A stretch of 47,036 bases of DNA, from contig REDX01000254.1 in assembly GCA_007695355.1 (NCBI GenBank), positions 1-47,036 on the forward strand, given 5' to 3'. Shown one piece after another: positions 4,481 to 42,491 of the stretch. The notes below the pieces were generated by a model. The model ran no database searches. It had not been told where the DNA came from and saw only the letters and a program-made list of their open reading frames with translations. This DNA comes from Planctomycetota bacterium. GTDB lineage: Bacteria > Planctomycetota > UBA11346. The number at the start of each line of letters is the position of its first letter. Position 1 is the first letter of the stretch. Both the position numbers and the translations under genes were made by a program.

Positions 4481-5764
4481 CTAGCGCTGGGCAGGGGCTT
4501 CACCCTTGGGCCTAAGGCCGGGCAGGAGGACGGTAAAGCGGGCGCCGCCAAGTTGCGGGCAGCGATCAATACTGAGGCTGCCTTCATGGAGGTTGACAAT
4601 CGAGTGAACGATGGCCAGGCCGAGGCCGGTACCGTGGTCTTTGGTGGTGAAAAAGGGCGTAAAGATTTCTTTGCGCAGACTTTCGTCTACTCCCGGCCCG
4701 GAATCGCTAATGCTGATAGAGGCCTGCTGTTGGGGGCCGTCTTCAAGCCGGACTAAAACCCGTGGTTGCGGGCTGTCGGCAGCAGCATGCAGGGCATTTT
4801 GTATCAAATTGATCAGGGCTTGGCGGATTTGGCTGCCGTCGAGGCAGCAGGTTCTGCCCTGCCATTGCGTGGTGATTTCGCAGGTCACTTGGCCGCGTAC
4901 GGCTTGAATCCGGTTGCGTTCCTCGGCGTGCTCATGCTCGCCCAGTTGCAATTCACTGTGTACCAACTCAATCACCGAATTGAGGAGTTCATCGAGGGGT
5001 ATCGGCCGCGGCTGGGGCGAACGCTGTTGGGTGAACTGGAGGAGGCTGGTGACGGTGTGATTAAGGTCGCGCACCCCTTCGACAATGGCGCGGGCATGAC
5101 GGGCGCTGCGACTTTCGCTGGGGAGGTCGCGGGCCAGCAGGGAGGCAAAGCCTTCAATCCCATTAAGTGGGTTGCGGATTTCGTGGGCGACGCCGGCGGC
5201 CATCTCGCCAAGGGAGCGCAGGCGCTCGCCACGATTGACGGTTTCCTGTAGGCGCCGCACATCGGTGACGTCGTCAAGGACTTCAACCGCACCGACAATG
5301 GAGCCACCAGGGCCAACGATGTGGGCGGTGACAACTTCGAAAATCCTTTGGCCGCCATGGGGATCGGGCAGCCGACGCTCGGCGTGCACGGCTTCCGTGC
5401 CGCCGCTAAGCAGTTCATGGATCCGGGTATCGGGAAAGAGATCGCGAAGCAGGCTGCCCTCCAGGGCGCATTGAAGGCCGACGCACATGCGTCGGGCGGC
5501 GGGATTGGCGGTGGTAATGCGGCCCTCTGGGTCAACCGCTATCACTCCGGTGGGAACCGAGGATAGCACCAGCTCCAAATATTGGCTGAGGGAGTTGAGT
5601 TCGTGAACCTTGATTGCCAATTGTTGGTTGGCGCGGGATAATTCACTTTGTTTGACGGTAAGCACTTCTTCCAGGCGCCGTGCCCGGGCCTCAAGTGCTC
5701 GCACGGTCTCATCGAAGAGGCGCAGGGCGGATTCGAAATCGGGGGTTCCCTGGGCCTCAGCCAT
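4481..5764 (-). CDS. PAS-domain sensor histidine kinase (NtrB/AtoS-like)
   Basis: MAAGVAHEIRNPLNGIEGFASLL H-box, N box (LINLIQNALHAA), DSGPGV, GTGLGLAIVHSIV; start MAEAQGT chosen inside track ORF 4481..5812 to fit the upstream gene end. Confidence 0.9.
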   Translation of the reverse strand: MAEAQGTPDFESALRLFDETVRALEARARRLEEVLTVKQSELSRANQQLAIKVHELNSLSQYLELVLSSVPTGVIAVDPEGRITTANPAARRMCVGLQCALEGSLLRDLFPDTRIHELLSGGTEAVHAERRLPDPHGGQRIFEVVTAHIVGPGGSIVGAVEVLDDVTDVRRLQETVNRGERLRSLGEMAAGVAHEIRNPLNGIEGFASLLARDLPSESRSARHARAIVEGVRDLNHTVTSLLQFTQQRSPQPRPIPLDELLNSVIELVHSELQLGEHEHAEERNRIQAVRGQVTCEITTQWQGRTCCLDGSQIRQALINLIQNALHAAADSPQPRVLVRLEDGPQQQASISISDSGPGVDESLRKEIFTPFFTTKDHGTGLGLAIVHSIVNLHEGSLSIDRCPQLGGARFTVLLPGLRPKGEAPAQR

Positions 5765-6143
5765 GGTGATCGATAAAGCGCGGCTGGTGGTTTGGATCAT
5801 CGCCATAAGCATGAATATTGCGCTTGTGGCGCTGTTGGTGCGAGGCCTCGGAAAGGGCTTGGGCCTGGATCCTGGCCATCTGGTTAAGGATGGCTTCGCT
5901 CAATTGCGCGCCGCGTTGCAGGCAGGTTACCACCTCTTGGGCCAGGGCTGGGCTCGCCGTGCTATCGGGGGTGGTTGGCAGCTCTTGGCGCAGGGCCTCG
6001 ATGGCATCGAGTTGCGGTTGTAAGCCCGGGGATTCCGTGAGCTTGGCAAGCATGTCGGGCGCCTGCCCTTGCAATTGTTGTAAGAGCTCTTCGAGGGCGT
6101 TGAGCCAATCCTGCCAAGGTGCAAGTGGTGGCGTCTGCTTCAT
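5757..6143 (-). CDS. Small helical protein, 128 aa, unknown (loosely FlgN/FliT chaperone-like in character, tentative)
   Basis: Start/stop overlaps on both sides within operon; helical Leu/Gln-rich sequence. Confidence 0.6.
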   Translation of the reverse strand: MKQTPPLAPWQDWLNALEELLQQLQGQAPDMLAKLTESPGLQPQLDAIEALRQELPTTPDSTASPALAQEVVTCLQRGAQLSEAILNQMARIQAQALSEASHQQRHKRNIHAYGDDPNHQPRFIDHHG

Positions 6144-6916
6144 AGCGAGGGATCTGCCCCCAGGCTTTCATGGAGGCGATTGAGGAGGGTATTGGCGCTA
6201 ATGATCAGGCTCACCGAACCGGGCCAATCGCTGACCAATCGCTCGTGGGCCCGGCGAGTAATATCGAGATGATCGCGGGATTCCTCGGGATGCGTTGCGG
6301 CAAGTCGGCTGGTCAATTCGCTGGCGAACCAAAAGATGAGGTACAGCCGCTGGGGCCGTAGGTGCTCTTCAAGGTGTTCGACGCTGATTCCTTGGCTGAC
6401 GTCAAGGCCACGTCGGAGTTTGTCGGTTGGCGCTTCCTCAAGATCTTCCAGCCAGGACTTGTAGCTGCGCGCCATTGCCAAGTGATTACTCGCGCGTAGG
6501 GCGTGGATTTGGTATTCATCGGCGACCAGAGCTGGGGTATCGAGAATATCGCGCTGCCGTTGTTGCCGTTCTTGCATCGCATTTAAGGTGGCTTCAAGTT
6601 CGCGCCAGGCGCTATTGCGATGATCGCGCTGTTCGCTGGCTTCGGGGCTTAATAGTTGTCCGGTGCGGGGCAAATCGCCGCTGGCGCGATCCATGAGGGC
6701 ACGGATGCGTTCATCCCGGGCGGCAATGGCTTGTTGGAGATTTTGCAGCAGGGCGTCTTCCGGATCAAGCTGGGCAGGCGCACGACCATCAGGGACCAAG
6801 GGCACCAGCCGCGGCAGCGGCGGCAGTCCAGGTTCAGGAATTTCGGGTTCGGCGGCGCTGAGCGGCAGCGCAGCCGATGCAAGGAGCAGGCCCAGGATTG
6901 CGCTTGTGAATTTCAT
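6140..6916 (-). CDS. Secreted helical protein of unknown function, 258 aa
   Basis: N-terminal signal peptide MKFTSAILGLLLASAALPLSAAEP; overlapping genes. Confidence 0.75.
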   Translation of the reverse strand: MKFTSAILGLLLASAALPLSAAEPEIPEPGLPPLPRLVPLVPDGRAPAQLDPEDALLQNLQQAIAARDERIRALMDRASGDLPRTGQLLSPEASEQRDHRNSAWRELEATLNAMQERQQRQRDILDTPALVADEYQIHALRASNHLAMARSYKSWLEDLEEAPTDKLRRGLDVSQGISVEHLEEHLRPQRLYLIFWFASELTSRLAATHPEESRDHLDITRRAHERLVSDWPGSVSLIISANTLLNRLHESLGADPSL

Positions 6917-9096
6917 TGGGCAGCCCGTCCATCATAGGCCTCAATGGCCTCGCGGTACATGCCGCGACGATAAAAGTAATCGCCAAGAATGCGAGCCGCA
7001 ACTTGACGATCCCGTTCGTGCGCCACTGGATCAGTTAGCACTTCGCGAAGGGCGGTGCGGGCACGGGCGTCATCGCCAATGGCAAAGGCGGCGCGGGCCA
7101 GGCCCAGACGGGCGGCTTGGGCTAAGTATTGGGGCGGATTGCTATCACGGACTCGCTGGTAGAGGGAAACCGCGCGCTCGTAATGCTCGGCCCCTGCGGC
7201 AGGATTTTGTTCGGCCATTTGGAAATGGTACTGCGCCAGATAAAAGTGGACCCGCGTTTCCACCGCCCCTGGATAGGCCCCGGCCTGAACCTGAAGATCC
7301 TCCAGCATTTCGGCAAGTTGGAACTGTACCGTCGGATCGTTCAGCAGCCGCTGATCTTCGAGGAGGCTCCACATTGCCTGAATATGCTCGCGACTGGAAT
7401 GAATCTCAGCATAGCAGCGGGCGATATTGATCAGCAGGGGCCCCTCAATGTCGGACTGCGGGAAACGTTGGCGCGCCCGCAAGAAAACATGCAGGGCACC
7501 GACATAATCCGGTTCATCCAAAAGCATTTTTACGCTGCCCAAGGCGAAGAGGGCTTGGCGATACAGATCTTGATCCACCAGCGGATCGGTACGGCGGTTA
7601 AATAAGGCTTGGCGCAAAAGCTGTAGGCGGGTAAGCGCCTCATCGAAATGGCGTTGGGCGACGCGGCGGCCGCTTTCGCCGCGATTGCGTTGTTGTCGGC
7701 CAAGGGCGATGTCGGCCTCGGCGATCATGAGGTGGATACGGTGGGAAAGGGACTCACCGGCCTCGGCGGCGTGGGCGAGAAGTTCTTCGCGGGCGGCCCG
7801 GTATTCGCCGCGATCAAAGTAGAGTTGCCCCAGTTCGAGGCGGGCCTCGGCCACCACTGCCTGGGCTTGGGCATCATTGCCGTGATAGGTGATGACATCT
7901 CGCAGGAGGCTGCTGGCCAGCTCAAGATCGGTGATGTCGCCACTTTGTGCCCGCAGGTGCTGTTGTCGGACGGCATGGGCAGCGGCCAAGCGCACGCCTG
8001 CTAGGCGGGGGTCACTGCGATCGGCTTTGTTGATGTAGTTGCGATAAATATTTGCTGCTTCGCGGTGCATGCCTAGTGCCTGCATGCTTTCAGCGACACC
8101 GATCATTGCCGAGCGCACCCAGGGCAGGGCCTCTAGGGAGGTCCGAGATCCGGTATCAAAATCGTAAATAAGGTCAGCAAAGGAGGAAATCGCACTAAAG
8201 TGCCGGGCGCGCCAGGCGCTATCATCATCGCTACCCTGGCGGCGCAAAGCCTCGGCTTGGCTGGCCTCTTGTCGGGCAATCAAATAGCGGGCCTGGGCAG
8301 CTACCACGTCTTGGCCGTCCCGCGCCGCCGAACGCAGGCTGGCAAGGGCGCGGCGCTGCAGCGCCTCCTGACTGGGAGTAAAATCCTCGTCATCGTCATC
8401 GCGGATAATGACCGCCCCCTGATTGCCGCCCTCCCGGTGCCACACCAGCCCAGTTTGCCGCAGTAAGCGGGTTAATGCCTCTTCCCAGGGCATATCCGCG
8501 ACATGCAGATCAACGATGCGGCGGGCCGGTGAGACTTGACGATCATTAATCGTGAGGCCCAGCAGGTAACCCATTTCACGGTACACTACTTCCACGCGCT
8601 CGCTGGAAATGCGGGCCGTAATGGTGGCCGGTGCGCTGCGGTTGCCAATTCGGTAGCGCTGGATAATCAGGGTATTATTGGCAAGGCGCGAGGACGACAC
8701 CGGATCACCATCGCGTACCAGTTCTTCTCGGCCGTCTGCTTGCTCGCGATCATCAACGCGGCGTTCTTCAATGCGTTGGCGATAGGCATCGCTAAAATCC
8801 CGGTCACTGCTTTCTAAAGCCCGTCGCACCCGCGCCACATCTTGACGCAGGGCCTGAAGATCGGCCGCCATGCCGGCGCGATCAATGCTGGTTTCGACGT
8901 TGTCTAAGCTGCGGGAATCGGCCTGTGGATCCTGCTCTGGCACCATCGGCCCATCGCGGAGAATCGGCGGCAAAGAGGGGATGGGGGTAATTGGGCGCGG
9001 CGTCGATTCTTCCGCTGCGTTAAGCCCGCAAGCGAAGATTAAGAGCAGGGAAAGCGTGCTGACGATGGGTGACCAGGGGCTTTGTTGCACGGTCAT
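6913..9096 (-). CDS. Secreted TPR protein with N-terminal STN/secretin-N-like segment, 727 aa
   Basis: Signal peptide; VVYREMGYLLGLTINDRQVSPARRIVDLHVADMPWEEALTRLLRQTGLVW resembles STN domains; multiple TPR-like repeats. Confidence 0.75.
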   Translation of the reverse strand: MTVQQSPWSPIVSTLSLLLIFACGLNAAEESTPRPITPIPSLPPILRDGPMVPEQDPQADSRSLDNVETSIDRAGMAADLQALRQDVARVRRALESSDRDFSDAYRQRIEERRVDDREQADGREELVRDGDPVSSSRLANNTLIIQRYRIGNRSAPATITARISSERVEVVYREMGYLLGLTINDRQVSPARRIVDLHVADMPWEEALTRLLRQTGLVWHREGGNQGAVIIRDDDDEDFTPSQEALQRRALASLRSAARDGQDVVAAQARYLIARQEASQAEALRRQGSDDDSAWRARHFSAISSFADLIYDFDTGSRTSLEALPWVRSAMIGVAESMQALGMHREAANIYRNYINKADRSDPRLAGVRLAAAHAVRQQHLRAQSGDITDLELASSLLRDVITYHGNDAQAQAVVAEARLELGQLYFDRGEYRAAREELLAHAAEAGESLSHRIHLMIAEADIALGRQQRNRGESGRRVAQRHFDEALTRLQLLRQALFNRRTDPLVDQDLYRQALFALGSVKMLLDEPDYVGALHVFLRARQRFPQSDIEGPLLINIARCYAEIHSSREHIQAMWSLLEDQRLLNDPTVQFQLAEMLEDLQVQAGAYPGAVETRVHFYLAQYHFQMAEQNPAAGAEHYERAVSLYQRVRDSNPPQYLAQAARLGLARAAFAIGDDARARTALREVLTDPVAHERDRQVAARILGDYFYRRGMYREAIEAYDGRAAQ

Positions 9097-10832
9097 GGCG
9101 TAGCCCTCCCTGGCTGTTCGCTGCCGAGGGTGGCCAGGCCGCTCTCGGCCAAGTCCAGGCGACCAAGTAAAAGATAGGCCTGTCGCAGCACGCGTTGGTG
9201 GCGCCGGGCCTGTTCTTCGTCGATGCCGCTGCCGTCGCGGCCGGCGAGATATCGATCCTCATTAGCGAGTAAAACGCCAATCACCCGTCGCGCTTTGCGG
9301 GCATCGCCAAGCTGGCTATGGGCGGTGGCCCACTCCAGATAAAAGTTTGGGTCCTCAAATAAGCCACCGTGACGATCGGCAACCGTGGCAAATTCGGTGA
9401 CCGCCAAATGGGGCTTACCTTCGGCCAAGTGGTGACGGGCCAAAATAAGGGTGACTTCGATCTCGCGATTGACATCGCGATGGCGTTGTCGAACCCGTTG
9501 CAGCATAATGACCCCGCGTTGGGCATTTTCTGGATCATTGAGCATCTCGCGGGCAATCCGCAGGTCCTCACCAAAGTCGTCGCTGGGTGTTACCACGGTA
9601 TCTCGGCTGGCGGCCAACTGGGTTGAGAGGGTATTCATTGAGGTCACTACGAAGACCATCGCTGCCGTGCACATCGCTAGCAGAAAAACGGCTGCTGCCA
9701 AAAGAAAGCGTGTACCGCGAAGTTCTTCCGAGGACATCACATTGATCGGTGGCATCATCGCGCCACCGCCGCGGGGGGCGCCATCGAAGGCATCGAGATC
9801 GCTTACCGCATCGGAGGTTTCAATGTTCTTTGCGGCCTCGTTGAGGAGCGCTTCGATATCGTTTTCCCGGCGGCCGATCATTTCGGTGATTTGCTCTGGG
9901 CTGGGGCCATTGGTGGCCTCGCTCATCTGTCGCACCAGGGCGTCGATATCCTCTTGGTTAATTAAGGCTTCGCTGTCTTCGTTGCTATCGCTGTGCTTGG
10001 TGACGAGGCTGTCGAGCTCTTCCTGGCTGAGATCGGAGTTTACCTTAGCGGTTTCAGAAAGTCGCGAGGTCTTTCCTTGGGGCTCAACACTTTCGGAAAC
10101 CGGGGCTACCGAACCGGCATCTAATTCAGCCAGTAGGGCATCGATATCATCTTGTCCAAGGGCACTTCCTTGGGGTTTCTTGGAGGCGCCAGTCGTGGCG
10201 GGTTTGGCACCATCATCGCCGTTCATTTCGGCCAGCAGGGCATCGATATCATCCTGTCCAAGGGGCCCTTCCTTGGCGGTTTCCTTGGTTTTCTTCGCCG
10301 TTTTATCGCCTTCGCCGTTCATTTCGGCCAGCAGGGCGTCGATATCATCCTGTCCGAGGGGCCCTTCTTGGGCGGTTTCCTTGGTTTTTTCTGGGTCTTT
10401 ATCTTCGCCGCCATTCATTTCGGCCAGCAGGGCGTCGATATCATCCTGTCCAAGAGGCCCTTCCTTGGGCGTCTCTTCCGCTTTTTCCGACGCTACTTCT
10501 GCTTCGCCCTCGCCGCTCATTTCCGCCAGCATGGCGTCGATGGCATCCTGTCCGAGGGGCCCTTCTGCTTCAGGTTTCTCGGTTTTCTCGGTTTTTTCTG
10601 GCGCTGCGTCTGCTTCGCCCTCGCCATTCATTTCGGCCAGCATGGCGTCAATGGCATCCTGTCCGAGGGGACCTTCTGGGCTCGGGGTGCTGCTGGGCTT
10701 CTCTGCTGGTGGCGAGGCCGGGGCTTCCTGTTGTTTAGGTTGCACCTTCGGTACCGCCGGCAGGGAGCCAGAGAGGCTTGCGAAGAGGGCGTCAATCTCT
10801 TCTTGGGTCATCGCCCGTGGTTCATCAGCCAT
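9093..10832 (-). CDS. Membrane protein with ~10 tandem FliM-N-like motifs, one TM segment and C-terminal TPR-like region, 579 aa
   Basis: Motif copies MTQEEIDALF, LGQDAIDAML(x2), LGQDDIDALL(x4), LSQEELDSLV, INQEDIDALV, RRENDIEALL; TM TRFLLAAAVFLLAMCTAAMVFVV. Confidence 0.88.
   Translation of the reverse strand: MADEPRAMTQEEIDALFASLSGSLPAVPKVQPKQQEAPASPPAEKPSSTPSPEGPLGQDAIDAMLAEMNGEGEADAAPEKTEKTEKPEAEGPLGQDAIDAMLAEMSGEGEAEVASEKAEETPKEGPLGQDDIDALLAEMNGGEDKDPEKTKETAQEGPLGQDDIDALLAEMNGEGDKTAKKTKETAKEGPLGQDDIDALLAEMNGDDGAKPATTGASKKPQGSALGQDDIDALLAELDAGSVAPVSESVEPQGKTSRLSETAKVNSDLSQEELDSLVTKHSDSNEDSEALINQEDIDALVRQMSEATNGPSPEQITEMIGRRENDIEALLNEAAKNIETSDAVSDLDAFDGAPRGGGAMMPPINVMSSEELRGTRFLLAAAVFLLAMCTAAMVFVVTSMNTLSTQLAASRDTVVTPSDDFGEDLRIAREMLNDPENAQRGVIMLQRVRQRHRDVNREIEVTLILARHHLAEGKPHLAVTEFATVADRHGGLFEDPNFYLEWATAHSQLGDARKARRVIGVLLANEDRYLAGRDGSGIDEEQARRHQRVLRQAYLLLGRLDLAESGLATLGSEQPGRATP
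9857..10808 (-). repeat. Coding tandem repeats, core ~96-bp units in the most regular copies
   Basis: Repeated TTCGGCCAGCAGGGCGTCGATATCATCCTGTCCGAGGGGCCCTTC on + strand. Confidence 0.85.
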
Positions 10833-11149
10833 TACTCATCCCCCCACAGCAGGGCCCGCTCATCCGGACCAACCCCACGCTGGGAATTGCCGGAGGTGGA
10901 CAGCGATGGTACCTGATCTAAGTGTTTATACCAGAGAATTGGCAGCTGGGCCTGGGAGAGCTGCCGTTTTAATTCGGGGTGGGCGCCAACCATGGCGCAG
11001 CCTGGATGCTCTCGCAGCCACTCATAAGCCCAGGTGCCCAGACATTCGAGTTCGCGGCAGTCGATGACTGGCGCCTCGTCCAGGGCGCAGGGCCACAGCA
11101 GCCGGCCACGCCAGACTGCAATTAAGGCAGAGTTGGACTTAGGCTTCAT
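10832..11149 (-). CDS. Small STAS-like domain protein (start MKPKSNSALIAVWRG)
   Basis: ALIAVWRGRLLWPCALDEAPVIDCRELECLGTWAYEWLREHPGCAMVGAHPELKRQL has STAS-like strand/helix pattern; TAATG overlap with 9093..10832. Confidence 0.55.
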   Translation of the reverse strand: MKPKSNSALIAVWRGRLLWPCALDEAPVIDCRELECLGTWAYEWLREHPGCAMVGAHPELKRQLSQAQLPILWYKHLDQVPSLSTSGNSQRGVGPDERALLWGDE

Positions 11150-11915
11150 GGGCGCGCTCCACCACCACGCCCTGCGGCCGCCACCAACAGCGATGGGCAA
11201 GGGCATCGATGACTTGTCGACGATCTTTCATCTGGCTGGAAAGGTCTGGCGACAGGCTTGCAGGGTCATGTTCAAAGGGTGACCAGCAGCGCCAGAGGGC
11301 GCCATCGTCGTTAATGACGAGGCGCTGGGCCAGCGACAACTGCATCAGCTCGGCGCAGATCTGCTGCAAGCGAGAGCTTTGATAGTTGGGGATAACATAT
11401 TCCAAGAAAAGAGCTTCAGCAGATGCGCTGGTCCCCCATTGGAGGTCCAGGATGTGCACCGAGCGCTCCACCAACGAACTGGCTTGGGCGCTAACCACCT
11501 GGGTTTGGGCCGATTGCATGGGCACCTGCAGCTGCTCAGGGTCTGGCCCGCAGATCACTGGGGGCGCTTCCCGATGCAGGGTGCCAATGCGCTGTATGGC
11601 CTCCTTGAGCTGCTCAAGGGCCACGGGCTTGGTGAGAAAATCAACGCAGCCGTTGCGTAAGGCAACTACCGCATCGTCGAAATTTCCATAGCCACTCATC
11701 AAAACGAAGGGAACGCCCAGTTCCAAGCAGAGATCTAGGCCACTGCCATCGGGCAGCTTGAGATCAGAGATAATTGCGTCAGGGGGTTGTTCAGCTGCAC
11801 ATTTACGGCCCTCAACCAAGGAATCGGCGGCCAAAACCCGGTGTCCCCAGCGCCGACAGGCGCGGGCCAGGGCAGAGCGAATTGCCGGTTCGTCTTCAAT
11901 GAGGAGGAGGTCCAT
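11139..11915 (-). CDS. Response regulator: REC domain plus unassigned C-terminal region, 258 aa
   Basis: MDLLLIEDEPAIRSAL, DAIISDLKLPDGSGLDLC (phospho-Asp), VLMSGYG, FLTKPV. Confidence 0.88.
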   Translation of the reverse strand: MDLLLIEDEPAIRSALARACRRWGHRVLAADSLVEGRKCAAEQPPDAIISDLKLPDGSGLDLCLELGVPFVLMSGYGNFDDAVVALRNGCVDFLTKPVALEQLKEAIQRIGTLHREAPPVICGPDPEQLQVPMQSAQTQVVSAQASSLVERSVHILDLQWGTSASAEALFLEYVIPNYQSSRLQQICAELMQLSLAQRLVINDDGALWRCWSPFEHDPASLSPDLSSQMKDRRQVIDALAHRCWWRPQGVVVERAHEA

Positions 11916-11926
11916 GCTGAGCTTAA

Positions 11927-11942
11927 AGCAATTCTGGTGCCA
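11927..11942 (-). promoter_or_regulatory. Sigma-54 (-24/-12) promoter upstream of the response regulator operon
   Basis: Minus strand TGGCAC-CAGAA-TTGCT, GG-N10-GC spacing. Confidence 0.8.
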
Positions 11943-22854: not shown

Positions 22855-24123
22855 ATGGCCACCGCAACTTTGCCTGAAATCGCTTCCTGTCTCACCTCCG
22901 CTGACGCGCTTGAGCTGCGTCAAGTGCGTCAGATTCGCCGGGTTGCTGAACAGAGCTCCCATAACCGCCAGTTATTGGCAGATGCCTATAAGTCTGGCGT
23001 GGTTGAAGATAAGGTGCGTCAAGCGATCCTTGCCTACGCCCTTGATTTCATCGGTGACGTTGATGAACAGTTGTCCGGTGCCAACGATCCCTTGGCGAAG
23101 GCGGTCCTAGGATTGGCCTATGCGGCCATCAATGAGACCGATGATGCGGTGAAGTTGCTCACTGCTGCGGGCAGCAAGCGCGAGGACGCCCGTATTGAAT
23201 TGGCCCGCGTCCTTTTGGATGCCGATCGCTATGATGATGCTGAAGCCATTATTAAAGATCTTGCCGATAGCGCCGATGCCAATTTCCTGCGTGGCCGCCT
23301 TGAAGAGTCCCAGGGCAACACCGAGCGCGCGATTAGCCTCTATGAGTCAGCCTTAGAACAGGACACCGAGCACGTTGATGCCGCTTTCAAATTGGGTGTC
23401 TTACTTGATCGCATTGGCGATGACGACATGGCAATTGAGTACTACTTGGTCTGCTCGGATGCGAATCCGCCCTATCTGCCTGGGGTGATTAATCTCGGCA
23501 TTCTCTATGACGAGCGCGGTGAATCGAATGCCGCCATTGATTGCTTCCGCCAGGTGCTGGCGCATAACCCTCAGAATGAGCGGGCGCGCATGCTACTGCG
23601 TGATTCGAAGGCTTCGCGCACCATGTACTACGACGAGCGCGAAGAGCGCCAGCGCGAGCAGCAGGCCAGCATATTCAAGACTCCGGTCAATGATTTCGAA
23701 CTTTCGGTGCGCTCCCGCAACTGCCTAGCCAAGATGAATATTTTCACCCTTGGCGACTTGGTGTCGATTACCGAAACCGAAATGCTGAATTATAAGAATT
23801 TCGGCGAAACCTCGCTTAAAGAGGTGCAGGAAATGCTGGAAGCCCGCGGTCTGCGTCTGGGTTACCTGCGCGATGATGATGAGCGCGGCCTCAATAAGGC
23901 CGACCAGAAGACCCTGGCTGAGAATATCGATCGCATGGAATTGTCGTCGAAGACAGTGCAGGTGCTTGAGCGTCTCGGCATCGCCAAGATCGGTGACCTC
24001 CTGGGCTATAACGATGTCCAGCTTTACCGCGTCCCTGGGTCTGGACAAAGCGCGGTGCAAGAGCTTTCCACCGCCCTTGGCGCCTACGGTCTCTGCCTGC
24101 CGCAACCTGAAATCAAGGGCTAG
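22855..24123 (+). CDS. TPR protein fused to RNA polymerase alpha-CTD-like domain, with a second alpha-CTD-like/HhH segment
   Basis: FELSVRSRNCLAKMNIFTLGDLVSITETEMLNYKNFGETSLKEVQEMLEARGLRLG; second segment MELSSKTVQVLERLGIAKIGDLLGYNDVQLYRVPGSGQSAVQELSTALGAYGLCL. Confidence 0.9.
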   Translation: MATATLPEIASCLTSADALELRQVRQIRRVAEQSSHNRQLLADAYKSGVVEDKVRQAILAYALDFIGDVDEQLSGANDPLAKAVLGLAYAAINETDDAVKLLTAAGSKREDARIELARVLLDADRYDDAEAIIKDLADSADANFLRGRLEESQGNTERAISLYESALEQDTEHVDAAFKLGVLLDRIGDDDMAIEYYLVCSDANPPYLPGVINLGILYDERGESNAAIDCFRQVLAHNPQNERARMLLRDSKASRTMYYDEREERQREQQASIFKTPVNDFELSVRSRNCLAKMNIFTLGDLVSITETEMLNYKNFGETSLKEVQEMLEARGLRLGYLRDDDERGLNKADQKTLAENIDRMELSSKTVQVLERLGIAKIGDLLGYNDVQLYRVPGSGQSAVQELSTALGAYGLCLPQPEIKG

Positions 24124-34886: not shown

Positions 34887-37800
34887 ATGTTTAAGAAACT
34901 GGTTCCAAGCATGTTGCTGGTAGCTGGCAGTCTGATGCCACTGTTCGCGGCCACCGCCGACGAGCGGGATGTGCATTTCCAAACTATTCGCGATCTCGTC
35001 GAGGCAGGGATGCGCTTGCCGGCTGAGCGTGCCATAGAGCGCTTCGCCTCAGCGAATTATCCTGATGCCAATTGGCATCACAAAGGTTTACGCTTTGCAT
35101 ACACCGATTTCTTTCGCACCGCGGCACCGGCGGCGGTGGCTGGTCCCTTGGAAGAGGAATACCAGCGCTTGCAATCTGAATTGAAAGCTGCCCTAGCGCA
35201 ACTGCCCGAGCCGGTGCGGATCCTCGTGGAGGGTGCCGGTGACGCCGATCTTCGGCGTTTCGTCAATATTATTCTCCGCGATCTCAATCCGCATGCGCCG
35301 CCGCCCCTGGTGCGTTTTACCGAAGAGCGGCAGCGTGAGTTCCAGGCTCGCCTGCAGCGCCTACTGCGCACCGCCGATACGGCCCTTAAAGCCGCCTACG
35401 ATAAAGTGAAGGCCTTTGAGCCCGAGGTCGAACGCAGTTGGGACTTCGAGCCCGATAGTCGGCAGTATCAGGAGATTTTCCAGCAGGCAGTGCTCCTGCG
35501 CTATGAATATGCCAATTTATTCTATACCACGTACAAGGCCCTGCGCGAAATCGTGCAGCGCGGCGCCCAATTTGGTTTGAGCCCATCCCTGGCCCGTGAT
35601 GTGGTAGAACCCTGGCTGCATGCCAAGCTGAAAGAGCACACCGAAGAATTTGCTAACTGGGATTGGAGCTACGCCGACGTTTACCCGCTACTCAAGCATC
35701 GCATGGCAGTGATCCTTTCAGAGGCTGTTCGACTTAATGAACGGCGCCCAGATCTGGGGACGATCAGCCATGTTACCTATGATGATGTTCGTGGATCTTT
35801 CTACTGGGTTATTGACCTTGATCTCAGCCAATTCCCTCGCCAGTTTCAAGAAGGTTTGACGATTCTTAAATATGAGGCCTGGGCCGATCTTATGTTCTGG
35901 CATTTGGCCATGGGCACCAGCCGCGCCTTGGATGAAGCGGCGAGAATTTGGGATGATTTTCGTTCGCGCTCACCCAGTCCTTTGAACCACCGCGATCAAT
36001 CCCGTCAGCAAGCGGTAGGCGCCCTACAGATTCTTGGTGCGCGTATTTTCCACGCCCGTGAGGAAATGTCGCGGGTGAATCCCCTGCTCGTTGAGTTGCA
36101 GCGTTCAAATAATTTCTTTGCTGCTAATTCTCGTTTCTGGCTCACCTATTTCCCGCAGCAGGGCGGCGGCAGCAGTGGCTGGGCGGCATTACCCACGCCT
36201 GAGGATCCCAATATTGCGTTAAGCTTGGCATCTGAGTTACGCCGCGAAGCGCGGAATTCCACCGATGTGGAAGTCGCCAATAGTATGTACATGGACGCTC
36301 TCGTGGCTTTGCGCAATGCCCTGCTGGGCTTGCCGGCTTCTTCGGATCCAGAGTTCCTCACTCTGGCCCCCCAGGTCTACCAGGCCTATGCCTTTGCCCT
36401 TTTTGATCGGGGCCTTTTATTTGAGGCAATCGTTGTCGCGGAGGAGGGTCTCAACCGTTTCCGGCCGATGTGGCAGCGGGGTCGTAATCTGGGTGGTAAC
36501 CCCTGGATCCGCGGCGAGACACTGAGCCCTGGTGGTGAATTGGTGCAGCGCCTGGCCGGTGACCTCTTCGCCTATACCCAGCGCCTGCGTTCTCGTTCGC
36601 AAACTTCGGCGGCCCGCGATGCCTATGGGCGATCCATCGATCTTTTGCGCATTTTTGATCCAGCCCGGGCGAAAGAGGGTTTGGATTGGAATGCCTTTGT
36701 CATCGCCCTGCAGCAAGGGGATTTCCGCAGCGCTGCCGAATCGCTAGAGCGCTACGAGCGCAACCAGCCCGATCAGCGGTTGCGCGTGCTTGGCGCTCGT
36801 GCTCGTATGCTCTATGCGGAGCTCAATCAGCGCCGCGATGCCAATGCGTCCCAGCAGATTCTCGATCAAACTCAGCAGCGCATGGATCAAGCCTTGACGG
36901 CCCTGCGCCGCGAAGTCGAGCCGATGATTGAGGGTGAACGCCCGATACCTGAGGGACAGGCCGGTGAGGTGCAAAACCTCTGGCGTTTCCTGACCACCGT
37001 CGAGGTGGCCACCCTCTTCCAGGCCGCCGACTATAATGCCGTTTTACGCAAACTTGACCTCGATTTCTGGCGCAATTTACAAGATGATCGCGAGCTTAAC
37101 CGCCAGCTTTTCAATTACCTGAGCGGTTCTGCCTATCGGGTGGCGGTGGCCAATACCCGCGATCAAGCCAGGCGCCAGGACCCCAATCTCATGCTGGAGC
37201 TGTGGCCCTTGTATACCAATACGGTGGCGGTGTACGAGCGCTTGGTCCAGCGCTGGCCGGAATTGGTTGAGCGTTTTCACGGTAATCGCCGCCAGATTGC
37301 TGCGCTGTTCAATGCGGTACGGGTGCAAACCAATTGGTTCCAGCAAAATGTGGATGCCAAGAGTGATGGCTTTGCTGAATTTGAAGAGGACACCTTCCGC
37401 GAAATGACGCGCGAGGCAGAACTCAACTTTGCCCGTATTTTCCCAATTGGTGATGATACCCAGGCCTCGGTGATTCTTTCTGTCGCCCTTGCCTACTGGC
37501 GTCAGGGTGACTTACGGCAGGCTGTGCCACTTTTTGAGCGCTATAAGAAAACCCTCGAGCAGGATGCTACGCTCCAAGCTTTCCGTGAAGACCCAACTCG
37601 GTTGCTTGCTCAAATGGCGGAGACCTTTTCCGCTCGCCAGGCGTTGAGGCCATTTTGGGAGCGTCGGGGGTCGCGATCGATTCCTGATCTCTTGGTCGAT
37701 GATCCGGGCCTTCGTGATATTATGTTAGATCCCAACGTGAGACAGTCTGACTGGCCTGAAGTCAAGCGTGATTTTGCCATGGCGCTAACTCGAACCAATG

Positions 37801-38435
37801 AGTTTGGTGAGCAACTACGCGCTCAGCGTGCCTTGATTTCGGATTTCGACCGAGTTTGGGCCGAGTTTGAGCGCTTTCGTGAATTGGTGCAAGGTCTCGC
37901 TTACTCGGTTCAAATTGACTCTTGGCTGGTAGATGCCTATCAGCAGTTGGGTCGTGGCCCTGAAGCGGTTGCATTGGCTCGTGAACTTTGGGATTATGAT
38001 CCTCTCAATCCTACCTTTATGGCTCTGGTTATCGAAGGAACTCTTAATACTCTGCGAAGTGGAGAAAAGCTTCCCCCTGCTGATGTCCGCAATGCCCAGG
38101 AAATTGCCGCCCGCCTCCGTAATATTGCCGGGCGCAACCCCGATCGCCGCGATCTCTACTGGGTCGCCAGTATCCAGGTGATGGAGTTGGCACACTATCT
38201 AGGTGACCCATCCCTGATTAATCGTACTCTGCAGCGGCATGTGGTGGACAACAATACGCCGCCTCCTGATTTCAGCGTGCCCATGTCCGATCCCTGGCGC
38301 GCTCGCGATGATCGCGCGGTGGAGATTGGTTCGCGCTATCTCGAGCTCTTCGATCTGCCCGGGGTGACCGTTGCCAAGCCCTATCGTATTGAAGAGCGGG
38401 ACGGCGAAGTTCTCTTTATTCGGGAGGCCAACTAA
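34887..38435 (+). CDS. Large secreted helical/TPR-like protein, 1182 aa
   Basis: Signal peptide MFKKLVPSMLLVAGSLMPLFAATADE; helical repeats; good RBS. Confidence 0.85.
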   Translation: MFKKLVPSMLLVAGSLMPLFAATADERDVHFQTIRDLVEAGMRLPAERAIERFASANYPDANWHHKGLRFAYTDFFRTAAPAAVAGPLEEEYQRLQSELKAALAQLPEPVRILVEGAGDADLRRFVNIILRDLNPHAPPPLVRFTEERQREFQARLQRLLRTADTALKAAYDKVKAFEPEVERSWDFEPDSRQYQEIFQQAVLLRYEYANLFYTTYKALREIVQRGAQFGLSPSLARDVVEPWLHAKLKEHTEEFANWDWSYADVYPLLKHRMAVILSEAVRLNERRPDLGTISHVTYDDVRGSFYWVIDLDLSQFPRQFQEGLTILKYEAWADLMFWHLAMGTSRALDEAARIWDDFRSRSPSPLNHRDQSRQQAVGALQILGARIFHAREEMSRVNPLLVELQRSNNFFAANSRFWLTYFPQQGGGSSGWAALPTPEDPNIALSLASELRREARNSTDVEVANSMYMDALVALRNALLGLPASSDPEFLTLAPQVYQAYAFALFDRGLLFEAIVVAEEGLNRFRPMWQRGRNLGGNPWIRGETLSPGGELVQRLAGDLFAYTQRLRSRSQTSAARDAYGRSIDLLRIFDPARAKEGLDWNAFVIALQQGDFRSAAESLERYERNQPDQRLRVLGARARMLYAELNQRRDANASQQILDQTQQRMDQALTALRREVEPMIEGERPIPEGQAGEVQNLWRFLTTVEVATLFQAADYNAVLRKLDLDFWRNLQDDRELNRQLFNYLSGSAYRVAVANTRDQARRQDPNLMLELWPLYTNTVAVYERLVQRWPELVERFHGNRRQIAALFNAVRVQTNWFQQNVDAKSDGFAEFEEDTFREMTREAELNFARIFPIGDDTQASVILSVALAYWRQGDLRQAVPLFERYKKTLEQDATLQAFREDPTRLLAQMAETFSARQALRPFWERRGSRSIPDLLVDDPGLRDIMLDPNVRQSDWPEVKRDFAMALTRTNEFGEQLRAQRALISDFDRVWAEFERFRELVQGLAYSVQIDSWLVDAYQQLGRGPEAVALARELWDYDPLNPTFMALVIEGTLNTLRSGEKLPPADVRNAQEIAARLRNIAGRNPDRRDLYWVASIQVMELAHYLGDPSLINRTLQRHVVDNNTPPPDFSVPMSDPWRARDDRAVEIGSRYLELFDLPGVTVAKPYRIEERDGEVLFIREAN

Positions 38436-39493
38436 TGCGAAATGTCACTTTATTTACCGCGCTGTTGTCATTCGTTTTCCTGGCAGCAGCCCAGTCCCCC
38501 GTGATTGCTGAAGACCGAGCTACGCCCGCTACGGTTTACTTGCGCAACGGCCCTCCTCAGGAGGGGGTGTTCATTATCCAAGAGGGCTTTCGCGAGGTTT
38601 CTTGGGCGCGCGATGATCGCATGACCGCCCGTACCTCCCGCCCGACGGCAGATGTGAAGCGTGTCGAATATGGACCTATTCCACCTGTAGAACGGGCCTA
38701 TCTGCGAGGTTTGGGGGCATTTAATTCCCGCAATTGGGCCAATGTGCTTGATCCAATGCAGGAGGTGACCACCTCATCTCGTTCCGCCTTTTTCCGGATT
38801 GATGCCCACCTTAAGCGGGCCCAGGCCTTGCAGCGTCTGCGCCGCTTTGACGACGCCTTGGTGGATGCCCAGGCCGTTATCAGTCGCTATGCTGAGTGGG
38901 TTCAGGTAGTTGATGCGATGGCTTTGGTCGGTGAAATTCATCTCGCTGCTGGCAATCAGGCCGAGGCGACCAATGCCTTCCGCGCCCTGCGTCAGGCAGC
39001 CAGCCGATTCGGTGGCCGTCACGGGGCGATTGCGGTTGCTCGTGGTGCTTTGGGTGAGGCCCAGATTTTAGGACAAGCGGGCAAACATGCCGAGGTGGTG
39101 CCCCTGCTGCGTAATGCGCTCGCTCAGGTGCCGGTGGCCTCAGCCGCCGATTACCATGGCCGCATTGCTGGCCAACTTGGTGATGCCCTGCTGGCCACTG
39201 GCGCCAAGGATGAAGCCAGAACCTTATTTGAGGGTTTACGCTTTGCTCCGATTTCGGCCGAGCACCGCGGTAAGGCCTTCCTGGAATTGGGCAAGATGCA
39301 CCTCGAGGCTGGGGATCGCATTGCGGCTGTGGACTCCTTGTTGGTTGCGGCCGTGCTGCGAGGGGGGTCTGATGAAGTCCGCAGTGAGGCCCGTCGTAGA
39401 GTGCGCCCCCTGTTAACCGCCCTTGGTTCTGACGAAAGCCTGGATCCTGAGACCCAGCGCGAATATCGGAGTTATGGAAGTCGTCTGCAATAG
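38435..39493 (+). CDS. Secreted TPR protein with N-terminal 'LRNGPPQEGVF' domain
   Basis: Signal peptide; TPR repeats; overlaps previous stop. Confidence 0.8.
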   Translation: MRNVTLFTALLSFVFLAAAQSPVIAEDRATPATVYLRNGPPQEGVFIIQEGFREVSWARDDRMTARTSRPTADVKRVEYGPIPPVERAYLRGLGAFNSRNWANVLDPMQEVTTSSRSAFFRIDAHLKRAQALQRLRRFDDALVDAQAVISRYAEWVQVVDAMALVGEIHLAAGNQAEATNAFRALRQAASRFGGRHGAIAVARGALGEAQILGQAGKHAEVVPLLRNALAQVPVASAADYHGRIAGQLGDALLATGAKDEARTLFEGLRFAPISAEHRGKAFLELGKMHLEAGDRIAAVDSLLVAAVLRGGSDEVRSEARRRVRPLLTALGSDESLDPETQREYRSYGSRLQ

Positions 39494-39542
39494 CGGCTTT
39501 GCTTGGATCCTCGTTTCTCTGTCTGAGTGAAAGGTTTTTGGC

Positions 39543-40733
39543 ATGTTTACCCATTCGAATTTCATCGCTACCCTTACCCTTGCTTTTGCCCTGACCCTTT
39601 GTGCCGCCTTTCTCCTGCCGGCCGCCTTAACCGCGGTAGAGCGTCGAGATCGCGTGGTGTTGCGAGGCAACTCCTTTCCAGCGATTATCGAGCGGGAAAC
39701 CCGAGAGGGTATTGAATACCGCATTACCCCCTCGCAGCCGAATGTGCAAACTCGACGTTGGAGCGAAGTGGTCGAAATCCGTTACGCCGGTATGGAGGGC
39801 GGCCTTTTTCAGGCGGGTATGAATGATATGCGCGCCGGGCGTTACGAAGAGGCCGCGACCCGTTTCAATGCCCTTGCCACCGGCGCTACTCGTGAGTGGG
39901 AGGGTGCTTATGGCTTTTACCATCTCGGCGAAGCTTGGGAGCGCGCCGGTGATTACGAGCAGGCAGCAGCTGCTTTCGCGGCCTTGGCTGGGGCCTTTCC
40001 TGAACACCGTTTTTGGCTAGATGCTCTGTATCGACGCGGCATTAACCTTGCTCACATTGGAAACCCCGAGGCGCAAACGGTAATTGATGAGTTGCTTAAT
40101 TATCGCGCGCAAAACCCCGCGGTTGGTCGCGGCCCGGAATTCCGTGCCAATGCTATTCGCGCGGTCATGCAGGCTCGCGCTGGGCAGATTAATGAAGCCC
40201 GCCGCACCGCTAATTCGGTGGCTTTGGCACCGCGAGATGGAGACACCTGGTTTCACTGGGGCAACTACTGGGCTCAATTCCTTTTCAATCAAGGCGAATT
40301 CCGCGATGCAGCCCAGCAGTTTCAGCGCATGCTAACACAGGTTGAAGACAACCCTGCTCAGCGCGCGCAGTTGAGCCTTGGTTTGGGGGTGAGTTTAGCC
40401 CGCGGTGGCGGCGATCGTTCGCAGGCGATTATGGAACTGCTGAAGCTGGATACCCTGCCCTACGGCTCGCCCGCCCAGCGCTGCGAGGCGCAATTTTGGG
40501 CCGGTCGCCTGATGCTGGCCGAAGCGAGGGAAAACAAAGATAACGAAGATGATCGTATATCCAGTTTTGCCCGCACGCAGTACCAGCGGGCCATTCTCCT
40601 CCTGCAGGCGGCGGCGGCGAGCATTAGTGATTCGCCAGCAAAAGCTGAAGCGCAAAACTTGCTTGACCAATTGCAGCCAGAGGAAAGAGGCGAAGAGGCT
40701 GAGGGTGGCGCTCCGGTCCTGGTCGAGGAGTAG
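39543..40733 (+). CDS. Secreted TPR protein with N-terminal 'VVLRGNSFPAII' domain
   Basis: Signal peptide; TPR repeats. Confidence 0.8.
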   Translation: MFTHSNFIATLTLAFALTLCAAFLLPAALTAVERRDRVVLRGNSFPAIIERETREGIEYRITPSQPNVQTRRWSEVVEIRYAGMEGGLFQAGMNDMRAGRYEEAATRFNALATGATREWEGAYGFYHLGEAWERAGDYEQAAAAFAALAGAFPEHRFWLDALYRRGINLAHIGNPEAQTVIDELLNYRAQNPAVGRGPEFRANAIRAVMQARAGQINEARRTANSVALAPRDGDTWFHWGNYWAQFLFNQGEFRDAAQQFQRMLTQVEDNPAQRAQLSLGLGVSLARGGGDRSQAIMELLKLDTLPYGSPAQRCEAQFWAGRLMLAEARENKDNEDDRISSFARTQYQRAILLLQAAAASISDSPAKAEAQNLLDQLQPEERGEEAEGGAPVLVEE

Positions 40734-40943: not shown

Positions 40944-42491
40944 TCAACTCAAGGGTGGATCTTCCGGTCGTTCAAGAACGCCAATGCCGCGGCGAACGGT
41001 AAGCTGGTATTCCACCAGCTTGCGGTCTAGGGTTACTCGGTTGATGCCAAGGCGCTTGGCGGCACGCAGTTTCACGCCGCGCTCTGCCGCCAGGGCATGA
41101 GTGATTAAGAGGCGTTCGATTTCGTTAAAGGCGCGACTAATATTAGGGCCTGCGCTGGCGGCATAGTGTTCAATCGCCTGCATGAGGTTTTCCATGTGAT
41201 CATCGGGGATCAGGCGGTCGGCAGACACCTGCAGCATGGCCCCGTCACCGGAGCTTCCGGCTATCCCTGGATGTTGGACGTAGCTGCGAATGGTGGGGGG
41301 AATCAAATCTTCGGAGAATGAACTGCCGGCAGCGAGCACCACCACCTTTTGCACGCAGTTTTCCAGCTCACGGACATTGCCCGGCCAGGGGTAAGCCTGA
41401 AGTATTTCCAGAACCTTGCGCGGCACGTGATCAACCTGCTTATAGTTCTCACGGTTGAACTTTTGCAGGAAATGGTTGATCAGGAGGGGGATGTCTTCCG
41501 GCCGGTCGCGCAGTGGCGGTAAATTCAGGCTTACCACATTGAGGCGGAAATAGAGATCCTGGCGAAAACGGCCCTGGGCAACTTCACGGCTTAGTTCGCG
41601 ATGGGTAGCGGCGATAACCCGCACATCGACGGGGATGGGGCGATGATCGCCGACGCGCGTTACCGTGCGTTCTTGGAGTACGCGCAGCAGACGCACTTGA
41701 CCTTCGGGACTCAGTTCTCCCACCTCGTCAAGGAATACGGTGCCACCGTCAGCAACTTCAAAGAGTCCCTTGCGATCGTGATCGGCCCCGGTGAAGGCGC
41801 CGCGGACATGGCCGAAAAGTTCAGATTCCAGCAGCGGGGTGGCAAGGGCGCCGGCGTTGACGGTGACCAGGGGCTTGTGGGCGCGGGTAGAGTGGGTGTG
41901 CACCAGGCGCGCCAGTAGTTCTTTCCCAGTGCCGGTTTCGCCATTGATCAAGACGGTGGCATTGGAGGGCGCGGTGCGCACGGCCGAGCGGATCACCGTT
42001 TCCAGCAATCCGGAGACGGTAATAATATCATGTTGCATAACCTGCGGCGTTAAGCTAGAGCGCAGGTAATGATTTTCCTCAGCCAGTTCGCTGGCTTCTA
42101 GTTGCAAGCGCAGACGGTCTAGGAGGTAGCGGGATAGGGCATCGACGAGGAATCCCGCAGGTTGCGGCTGATGATGGTGACTGACGAGGATGATCGCCAC
42201 AGGCACATTGCCATCACGCAATTGGCGGGCGACCACCGGCAGGCCATCGGTATTGACACTGGCGGTGGAGGGCGAGGCGAGGCTGGCGATTTCGTCGGCA
42301 TTGTCTGGGCAGCGCCCGGCCAGTACGGTTCCCGAAGGTTGCAAGTGGCCGGGGAGACAGCTGACCCATATGCCATCGATGGACTCCCAGGCCTCGACTT
42401 CGGCCCATAGGCGATCCAGGCAATGGCGAGGATTGCTGGTGGGATCGAGGAGATGGAGAATGGTGCCAACATGGGCAGTCCAGGACATCAT
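40944..42491 (-). CDS. Sigma-54 interaction domain transcriptional activator with N-terminal sensory region and Fis-type HTH
   Basis: GETGTGKELLARLVH, GAFTGAD, FLDEVGELSPEGQ, PWPGNVRELEN, AAKRLGINRVTLDRKL. Confidence 0.93.
   Translation of the reverse strand: MMSWTAHVGTILHLLDPTSNPRHCLDRLWAEVEAWESIDGIWVSCLPGHLQPSGTVLAGRCPDNADEIASLASPSTASVNTDGLPVVARQLRDGNVPVAIILVSHHHQPQPAGFLVDALSRYLLDRLRLQLEASELAEENHYLRSSLTPQVMQHDIITVSGLLETVIRSAVRTAPSNATVLINGETGTGKELLARLVHTHSTRAHKPLVTVNAGALATPLLESELFGHVRGAFTGADHDRKGLFEVADGGTVFLDEVGELSPEGQVRLLRVLQERTVTRVGDHRPIPVDVRVIAATHRELSREVAQGRFRQDLYFRLNVVSLNLPPLRDRPEDIPLLINHFLQKFNRENYKQVDHVPRKVLEILQAYPWPGNVRELENCVQKVVVLAAGSSFSEDLIPPTIRSYVQHPGIAGSSGDGAMLQVSADRLIPDDHMENLMQAIEHYAASAGPNISRAFNEIERLLITHALAAERGVKLRAAKRLGINRVTLDRKLVEYQLTVRRGIGVLERPEDPPLS

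Follow-up and report, generated by a model that had tools for sequence, protein, structure and literature searches.

A probable sigma-54-driven flagellar checkpoint and motor-scaffold operon in one family of Planctomycetota

In the periplasmic scaffold of the flagellar motor, the TPR proteins PflA and PflB form the spokes and the rim (PMC12222027), and MotK/MotC and FlcB are likely relatives of these proteins (PMC13023049). The kinases FlrB, FleS and FlgS are soluble, and their activity depends on the state of the export apparatus, the MS ring and the rotor (PMC7064773). The N-terminal peptide of FliM (FliM-N) is a known ligand of CheY (PMC9126983), and LvrC of Leptospira combines a receiver with an RsbW-like Bergerat domain of the anti-sigma type (PMC13269768). 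Here these systems are compared with a seven-gene operon in the window, which is the whole stretch of DNA analysed (47,036 nucleotides (nt) of contig REDX01000254.1 from an uncultured Planctomycetota bacterium, UBA11346; the host's family is referred to as f1). Given its phylogenetic profile with FliM, the synteny of the kinase and of its upstream genes with flgBC-fliEF and a sigma-54 promoter site, the operon very likely belongs to the flagellum. The full reading is of an operon driven by sigma-54 that serves as flagellar checkpoint and motor scaffold in one Planctomycetota family, with a partner switch and a FliM-N tether; it is probable, with appreciably less certainty than the assignment to the flagellum. 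Neither FliM-N arrays nor this operon were found described in the literature, most subscription journals being outside the search.

All seven minus-strand open reading frames (ORFs) at 4481-11915 were present. In the direction of transcription they encode a receiver protein, a STAS-like protein, a protein with an array of FliM-N-type motifs, an STN-TPR protein, two helical proteins of 258 and 128 amino acids (aa) and a kinase. When checked base by base, the overlaps were 11 nt between the receiver and STAS-like genes (11149/11139), 1 nt between the STAS-like and array genes (TAATG at 10832), 4 nt at each of the array/STN-TPR (9096/9093), STN-TPR/258-aa (6916/6913) and 258-aa/128-aa (6143/6140) junctions, and 8 nt between the 128-aa and kinase genes (5764/5757). 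For the kinase and the STAS-like protein, the family alignments favoured the starts at 5764 and 11149, respectively, over those of the longest ORFs. Downstream, the kinase gene is followed after a gap of 116 nt by a fatty-acid desaturase gene, for which no match was seen in the relatives' loci, and upstream a gap of 200 nt leads to a divergent inositol-phosphatase gene. Given the overlapping junctions, the 116-nt gap and the divergent upstream gene, the unit was taken to comprise 4481-11915 and its promoter. A preliminary description of this DNA had proposed a seven-gene unit with a start/stop overlap at every junction, in which a kinase, a receiver, a STAS-like protein, a FliM-N array scaffold and secreted STN/TPR proteins are translationally coupled; this agrees with the six overlaps of 1-11 nt and with the domain matches. 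The unit was also found to be kept far outside the circle of close relatives, in further genera of f1.

A single-sequence scan of genome contigs gave nothing, and an alignment-based scan gave ten relatives, nearly all metagenome-assembled genomes (MAGs). Orthologues of the STN-TPR protein were found in 15 other f1 genomes, so that nine genera including the window's own were represented, with an identity of 56% in the congener and mostly 32-37% in the eight further genera; no full-length orthologue was found outside f1 in 98 genomes. The order of the array, STN-TPR and 258-aa genes (and the kinase gene) was kept in nearly all f1 loci that were long enough, with the STAS-like and receiver genes in front in several. 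Among the 23 f1 genomes, 16 contained the array gene and 17 contained FliM; both were present in 15 and neither in five, and the three mismatches were all in genomes that were 68-72% complete. This association (Fisher's exact test, p = 0.003, or p = 0.018 when restricted to genomes with a completeness of 85% or more) was uncorrected for shared ancestry within the family. The FliM/FliN C-terminal domain yielded an identical presence profile, and a CheA-type kinase was found in 15 of the 17 genomes with FliM.

The kinase (4481-5764, minus strand) is of the flagellar type, with domain matches to PAS, HisKA and HATPase_c following an N-terminal coiled coil, as judged by sequence, and no transmembrane segment, and was regarded as cytosolic. 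When the phylum was searched with the kinase profile, the best matches outside f1 were in families f32, f42, f38, f46, f36, f62 and f28, and the orthologues in f42, f46, f8, f28, f36 and f38 matched at 8e-73 to 1.5e-89. In f42, f38, f46, f36, f8 and f28 the kinase gene adjoins that of an NtrC-type regulator and/or flgB, flgC, fliE and fliF, with varying completeness, and the flagellar neighbours were confirmed by Pfam (f42: FliE 5e-26, FliF 5e-62; f36: FliF 4e-42; f8: FliF 1e-34). From the kinase onward the f42 genes run histidine kinase, NtrC, flgB, flgC, fliE and fliF, and those upstream of the kinase encode NtrC, REC-SpoIIE-HATPase_c_2, STAS, transmembrane TPR (TM-TPR), GspD-N0/STN-TPR and exported TPR proteins. 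Given this series and the matches of the f1 profiles to the f42 STN-TPR orthologue (4e-25 for the STN profile; 98.9% in the profile-profile comparison) and to the f42 TM-TPR protein (7.8e-7 for the TPR half of the array protein), the order REC-X/STAS/TM-TPR/STN-TPR/exported/kinase is common to f1 and f42. The f1 operon was probably derived from a module located directly upstream of flgB-flgC-fliE-fliF in other families of the phylum.

As in FlrBC, FleSR and FlgSR, the window kinase is a soluble coiled-coil/PAS/HisKA/HATPase protein, and in other families its orthologues stand next to flgBC-fliEF with a sigma-54 NtrC-type regulator as partner. Unlike in those systems, the window receiver lacks a sigma-54 activator or helix-turn-helix (HTH) domain; its C-terminal domain is Bergerat-like, and a STAS-like gene comes next. 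Given that the pairing with NtrC was seen for the f42 and f8 orthologues and not in the window operon, the kinase was called FlrB-like rather than a member of this group; such a kinase may report the state of motor assembly. In flagellated f1 members (L100:12500-15418 and L105:8485-11484) fliM-fliN was directly followed by a gene that reads as GspF/PilC-like and by a histidine kinase gene.

A perfect match to a sigma-54 -24/-12 promoter (TGGCACCAGAATTGCT, 11927-11942, minus strand) was located 11 nt 5' of the receiver start codon, a distance at which the leader would be very short. It was the sole perfect sigma-54 site when both strands of the window were scanned. The elements GGCACC-N4-TTGCTT are kept at the equivalent place in the congener G001 despite divergence of the surrounding DNA, a perfect site also precedes the f42 counterpart (L145:7876), and RpoN was present in 22 of the 23 f1 genomes. 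No perfect sigma-54 site was found in four f1 flagellar stretches and the promoter argument therefore rests on the window operon and its congener. At 40944-42491 in the window, 29 kilobases from the operon, a sigma-54 activator (AAA + HTH_8) without a receiver domain is encoded.

The receiver protein (11139-11915, minus strand) consists of an NtrC-like REC domain (PF00072, 1e-18; D51, K96) and a C-terminal domain of about 100 aa, and no recognised DNA-binding domain, neither HTH nor sigma-54 activator, was found in it. In the AlphaFold2 (AF2) model the REC domain was confident and the C-terminal domain had the order b-a-a-b-b-a-b-b (mean predicted local distance difference test score, pLDDT, 75). 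The best fold match of the model in the PDB was LvrC, a REC-Bergerat protein (1.8e-10), with 313 alignment columns as compared with about 120 for bare receivers; the relative domain orientation differs (root-mean-square deviation 19.9) and most of the score comes from REC. The corresponding operon slot is occupied by REC-SpoIIE-HATPase_c_2 in f42 and, as the first protein, by REC-HATPase_c_2 without a phosphatase domain in f62, which is an intermediate form. The STAS-like protein (105 aa, 10832-11149, minus strand; family alignment A3) gave no match in a PDB profile search; its syntenic counterpart in f42 matched PF01740 STAS at 5.5e-12 and an ER..LW tail is common to both. According to hydropathy, neither the receiver nor the STAS-like protein has a transmembrane or signal segment.

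The HsbR/HsbA partner switch of Pseudomonas connects to FlgM, and the combination of REC-SpoIIE-HATPase and STAS resembles HsbR/HsbA. The window operon is like LvrC and HsbR-HsbA in having a REC with a domain that is probably of the Bergerat type and a neighbouring STAS-like gene, the f42 counterpart being REC-SpoIIE-HATPase_c_2 with STAS, and unlike them in that its C-terminal domain is strongly diverged, with no ATPase motif recognised and no phosphatase domain. From fold and synteny, the receiver protein is likely a REC-Bergerat protein, for which a role as an anti-sigma-type switch protein is proposed. With its putative degenerate Bergerat-type domain it could form, together with the STAS-like protein, a REC-controlled partner switch and not a DNA-binding regulator.

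Besides the motif array that had been noted before, the 579-aa array protein (9093-10832, minus strand) was found to carry a transmembrane helix (373-402) and a C-terminal TPR half. Given this single helix, the most probable topology, predicted from the sequence, places the TPR half in the periplasm and leaves a long acidic tail in the cytoplasm. The STN-TPR protein (727 aa, 6913-9096, minus strand) matched PF07660 at 1.7e-7 as well as TPRs and has a signal-like segment at 7-29, indicating export; its AF2 model (pLDDT 79.5) shows a beta-rich STN region and then a TPR superhelix that starts at residue 243 and continues to the C terminus. The 258-aa helical protein (6140-6916, minus strand) has a signal-like segment at 1-22, appears to be exported and is conserved in f1, and the small 128-aa helical protein (5757-6143, minus strand) is without transmembrane segments and presumably cytoplasmic, with a recognisable homologue only in G009 (7.5e-7). 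As in PflA/PflB of Campylobacter and Helicobacter, MotC/MotK and FlcB, adjacent genes in the window encode an exported protein in which a long TPR superhelix follows an N-terminal beta-domain, and a TPR partner. In contrast to these scaffolds, the window protein has an STN domain and its membrane partner carries a long cytoplasmic FliM-N tail; no sequence or fold match to PflA was detectable among the matches listed. The inner-membrane protein with its periplasmic TPR half, the exported STN-TPR protein and the small exported helical protein could make up an envelope-spanning TPR assembly that builds, or senses, a scaffold surrounding the motor in the manner of PflB and PflA.

The TPR and STN proteins could instead be assembly sensors for the kinase within a pure flagellar gene-regulation module, the array then binding the operon's own receiver, which in its phosphorylated form would be kept at the membrane as long as the motor is incomplete. 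This would fit with the presence of the kinase, receiver and array in one coupled operon and with the requirement of FlrB and FleS activity for the export apparatus, MS ring and rotor (PMC7064773). However, families that differ in receiver and output still have the STN-TPR and TM-TPR proteins, and it is CheY that is the known partner of FliM-N (PMC9126983), so that this explanation was considered unlikely.

Several observations weigh against a flagellar checkpoint and motor scaffold. The f1 operon is not adjacent to the flagellar cluster, the two being on separate contigs, and no NtrC gene was found beside the f1 kinase; the kinases of G003, G006 and G008 are on other contigs than the operon, the STAS and receiver genes were not found at some f1 loci, and the f1 data are draft assemblies, mostly MAGs. 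No Pfam model matches the f1 STAS-like protein. The receiver C-terminal domain had no significant sequence similarity to HATPases by profile comparison, and homology to HATPases was therefore kept only as an inference from fold and synteny. When the STN-TPR protein was compared with the PDB, by profile and by model, there were only generic TPR proteins and no PflA among the matches listed, and the TPR folds are generic. The FliM of f1 retains its own FliM-N-like motif, ILS(S/A/P)EELDALL, with variants elsewhere, so the array is not needed as a substitute, and the idea that it replaces a lost CheY site of FliM was ruled out.

The lack of linkage to flagellar genes in f1, together with the secreted STN/TPR proteins and the PAS kinase, would also be expected from a general envelope-stress or surface-sensing system that was kept only by chance in flagellated members and whose array recruits receivers of several pathways. 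Against such a system stand the near-perfect co-occurrence with FliM and the synteny with flgBC-fliEF in several other families, which make it even less likely than a pure regulation module. The preliminary description had come close to this view, with an unrecognised set of genes that could sense the state of the envelope and relay it through the array. A relay of this kind is plausible; the coupled operon with secreted STN/TPR proteins stood, and its assignment was changed to a flagellar operon based on the phylogenetic profile, the flgBC-fliEF synteny and the sigma-54 promoter.

The FliM-N array reported earlier in the 579-aa protein was recovered as nine copies of the pattern [MLI]xQ[DE]x[IL]D[AS][LM][LVF] within residues 8-300, compared with a mean of 0.004 motifs in shuffled proteins for a looser form of the pattern and, for the strict form, no occurrence among 2000 shuffles. 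Across 13 relatives, two of them truncated, there were 1 to 10 copies per protein, and Q3 and D7 were identical in all 66 copies found. That the repeats are an acidic low-complexity linker spelling IDALL by chance, as the acidity of the N-terminal part (-55 in 380 aa) and the variable motif number between relatives might suggest, is very improbable given the shuffling result, the invariance of Q3 and D7 under a search pattern that permitted other residues, and the separate occurrence of an array in the flagellated family f32, where the coiled-coil protein that bears it is unrelated. The NCBIfam FliM model gave a weak match on the array stretch (E 0.016); the array protein had no match in plasmids and a chance match only in the PDB. 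The motif has, in its nine copies, the LSQxEIDALL-type core of the CheY-binding FliM-N peptide. The same ten-residue core is shared with the CheY-P-binding peptide of FliM and FliY (CheY-P, phosphorylated CheY), and the first copy is at the N terminus as in FliM; unlike in FliM and FliY, up to ten tandem copies are carried by a membrane protein and not by a C-ring subunit. The array is absent from the corresponding transmembrane protein in f42 and other families, and FliM-N arrays were found only in f1 and in f32; the cytoplasmic tail probably gained its array within f1.

In f32 (L068, L069, L070, L071 and L072), in which FliM was found in 16 of 16 searched genomes, the arrays of about 5-10 repeats (GQDDIDALLA) are on unrelated proteins of about 720-805 aa with a coiled coil in place of the TM-TPR half, and obvious flagellar genes were not nearby. 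A second, different FliM-N array protein was seen in the f1 member G009 (L074:3664-6600), in a 978-codon frame with copies of DDGPLDQNAIDALLG, and by reading of the sequence FliN-like proteins with extra N-terminal FliM-N-type motifs occur at L073:4082-4912 and L075:5067-5735. Elsewhere in the window, 22855-24123 encodes a TPR protein with a C-terminal part that, by reading of the sequence, resembles RNA polymerase alpha-CTD-type domains, and 34887-40733 encodes three consecutive exported-looking TPR-like proteins (1182, 352 and 396 aa), perhaps another envelope complex.

For the flagellar checkpoint and motor-scaffold operon, we infer the kinase input, partner switching, scaffold role and array ligand, and our confidence falls from the scaffold through the partner switch to the antenna. 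The array might keep CheY-P, or else the receiver of the operon itself, close to the C-ring. It is a tentative suggestion that a membrane-anchored, motor-associated scaffold with an array of CheY-binding peptides concentrates CheY-P at the C-ring as a local antenna or buffer for the chemotaxis signal, and that this arose independently, on unrelated proteins, in two families of planctomycetes. With the assignment of the seven-gene operon to the flagellum, a flagellar kinase, a REC/STAS pair and TPR scaffold-like proteins are brought together in one transcription unit, and there is evidence of tandem FliM-N arrays in proteins other than FliM. Should the array bind CheY-P, a tethered messenger pool could serve to tune motor output.

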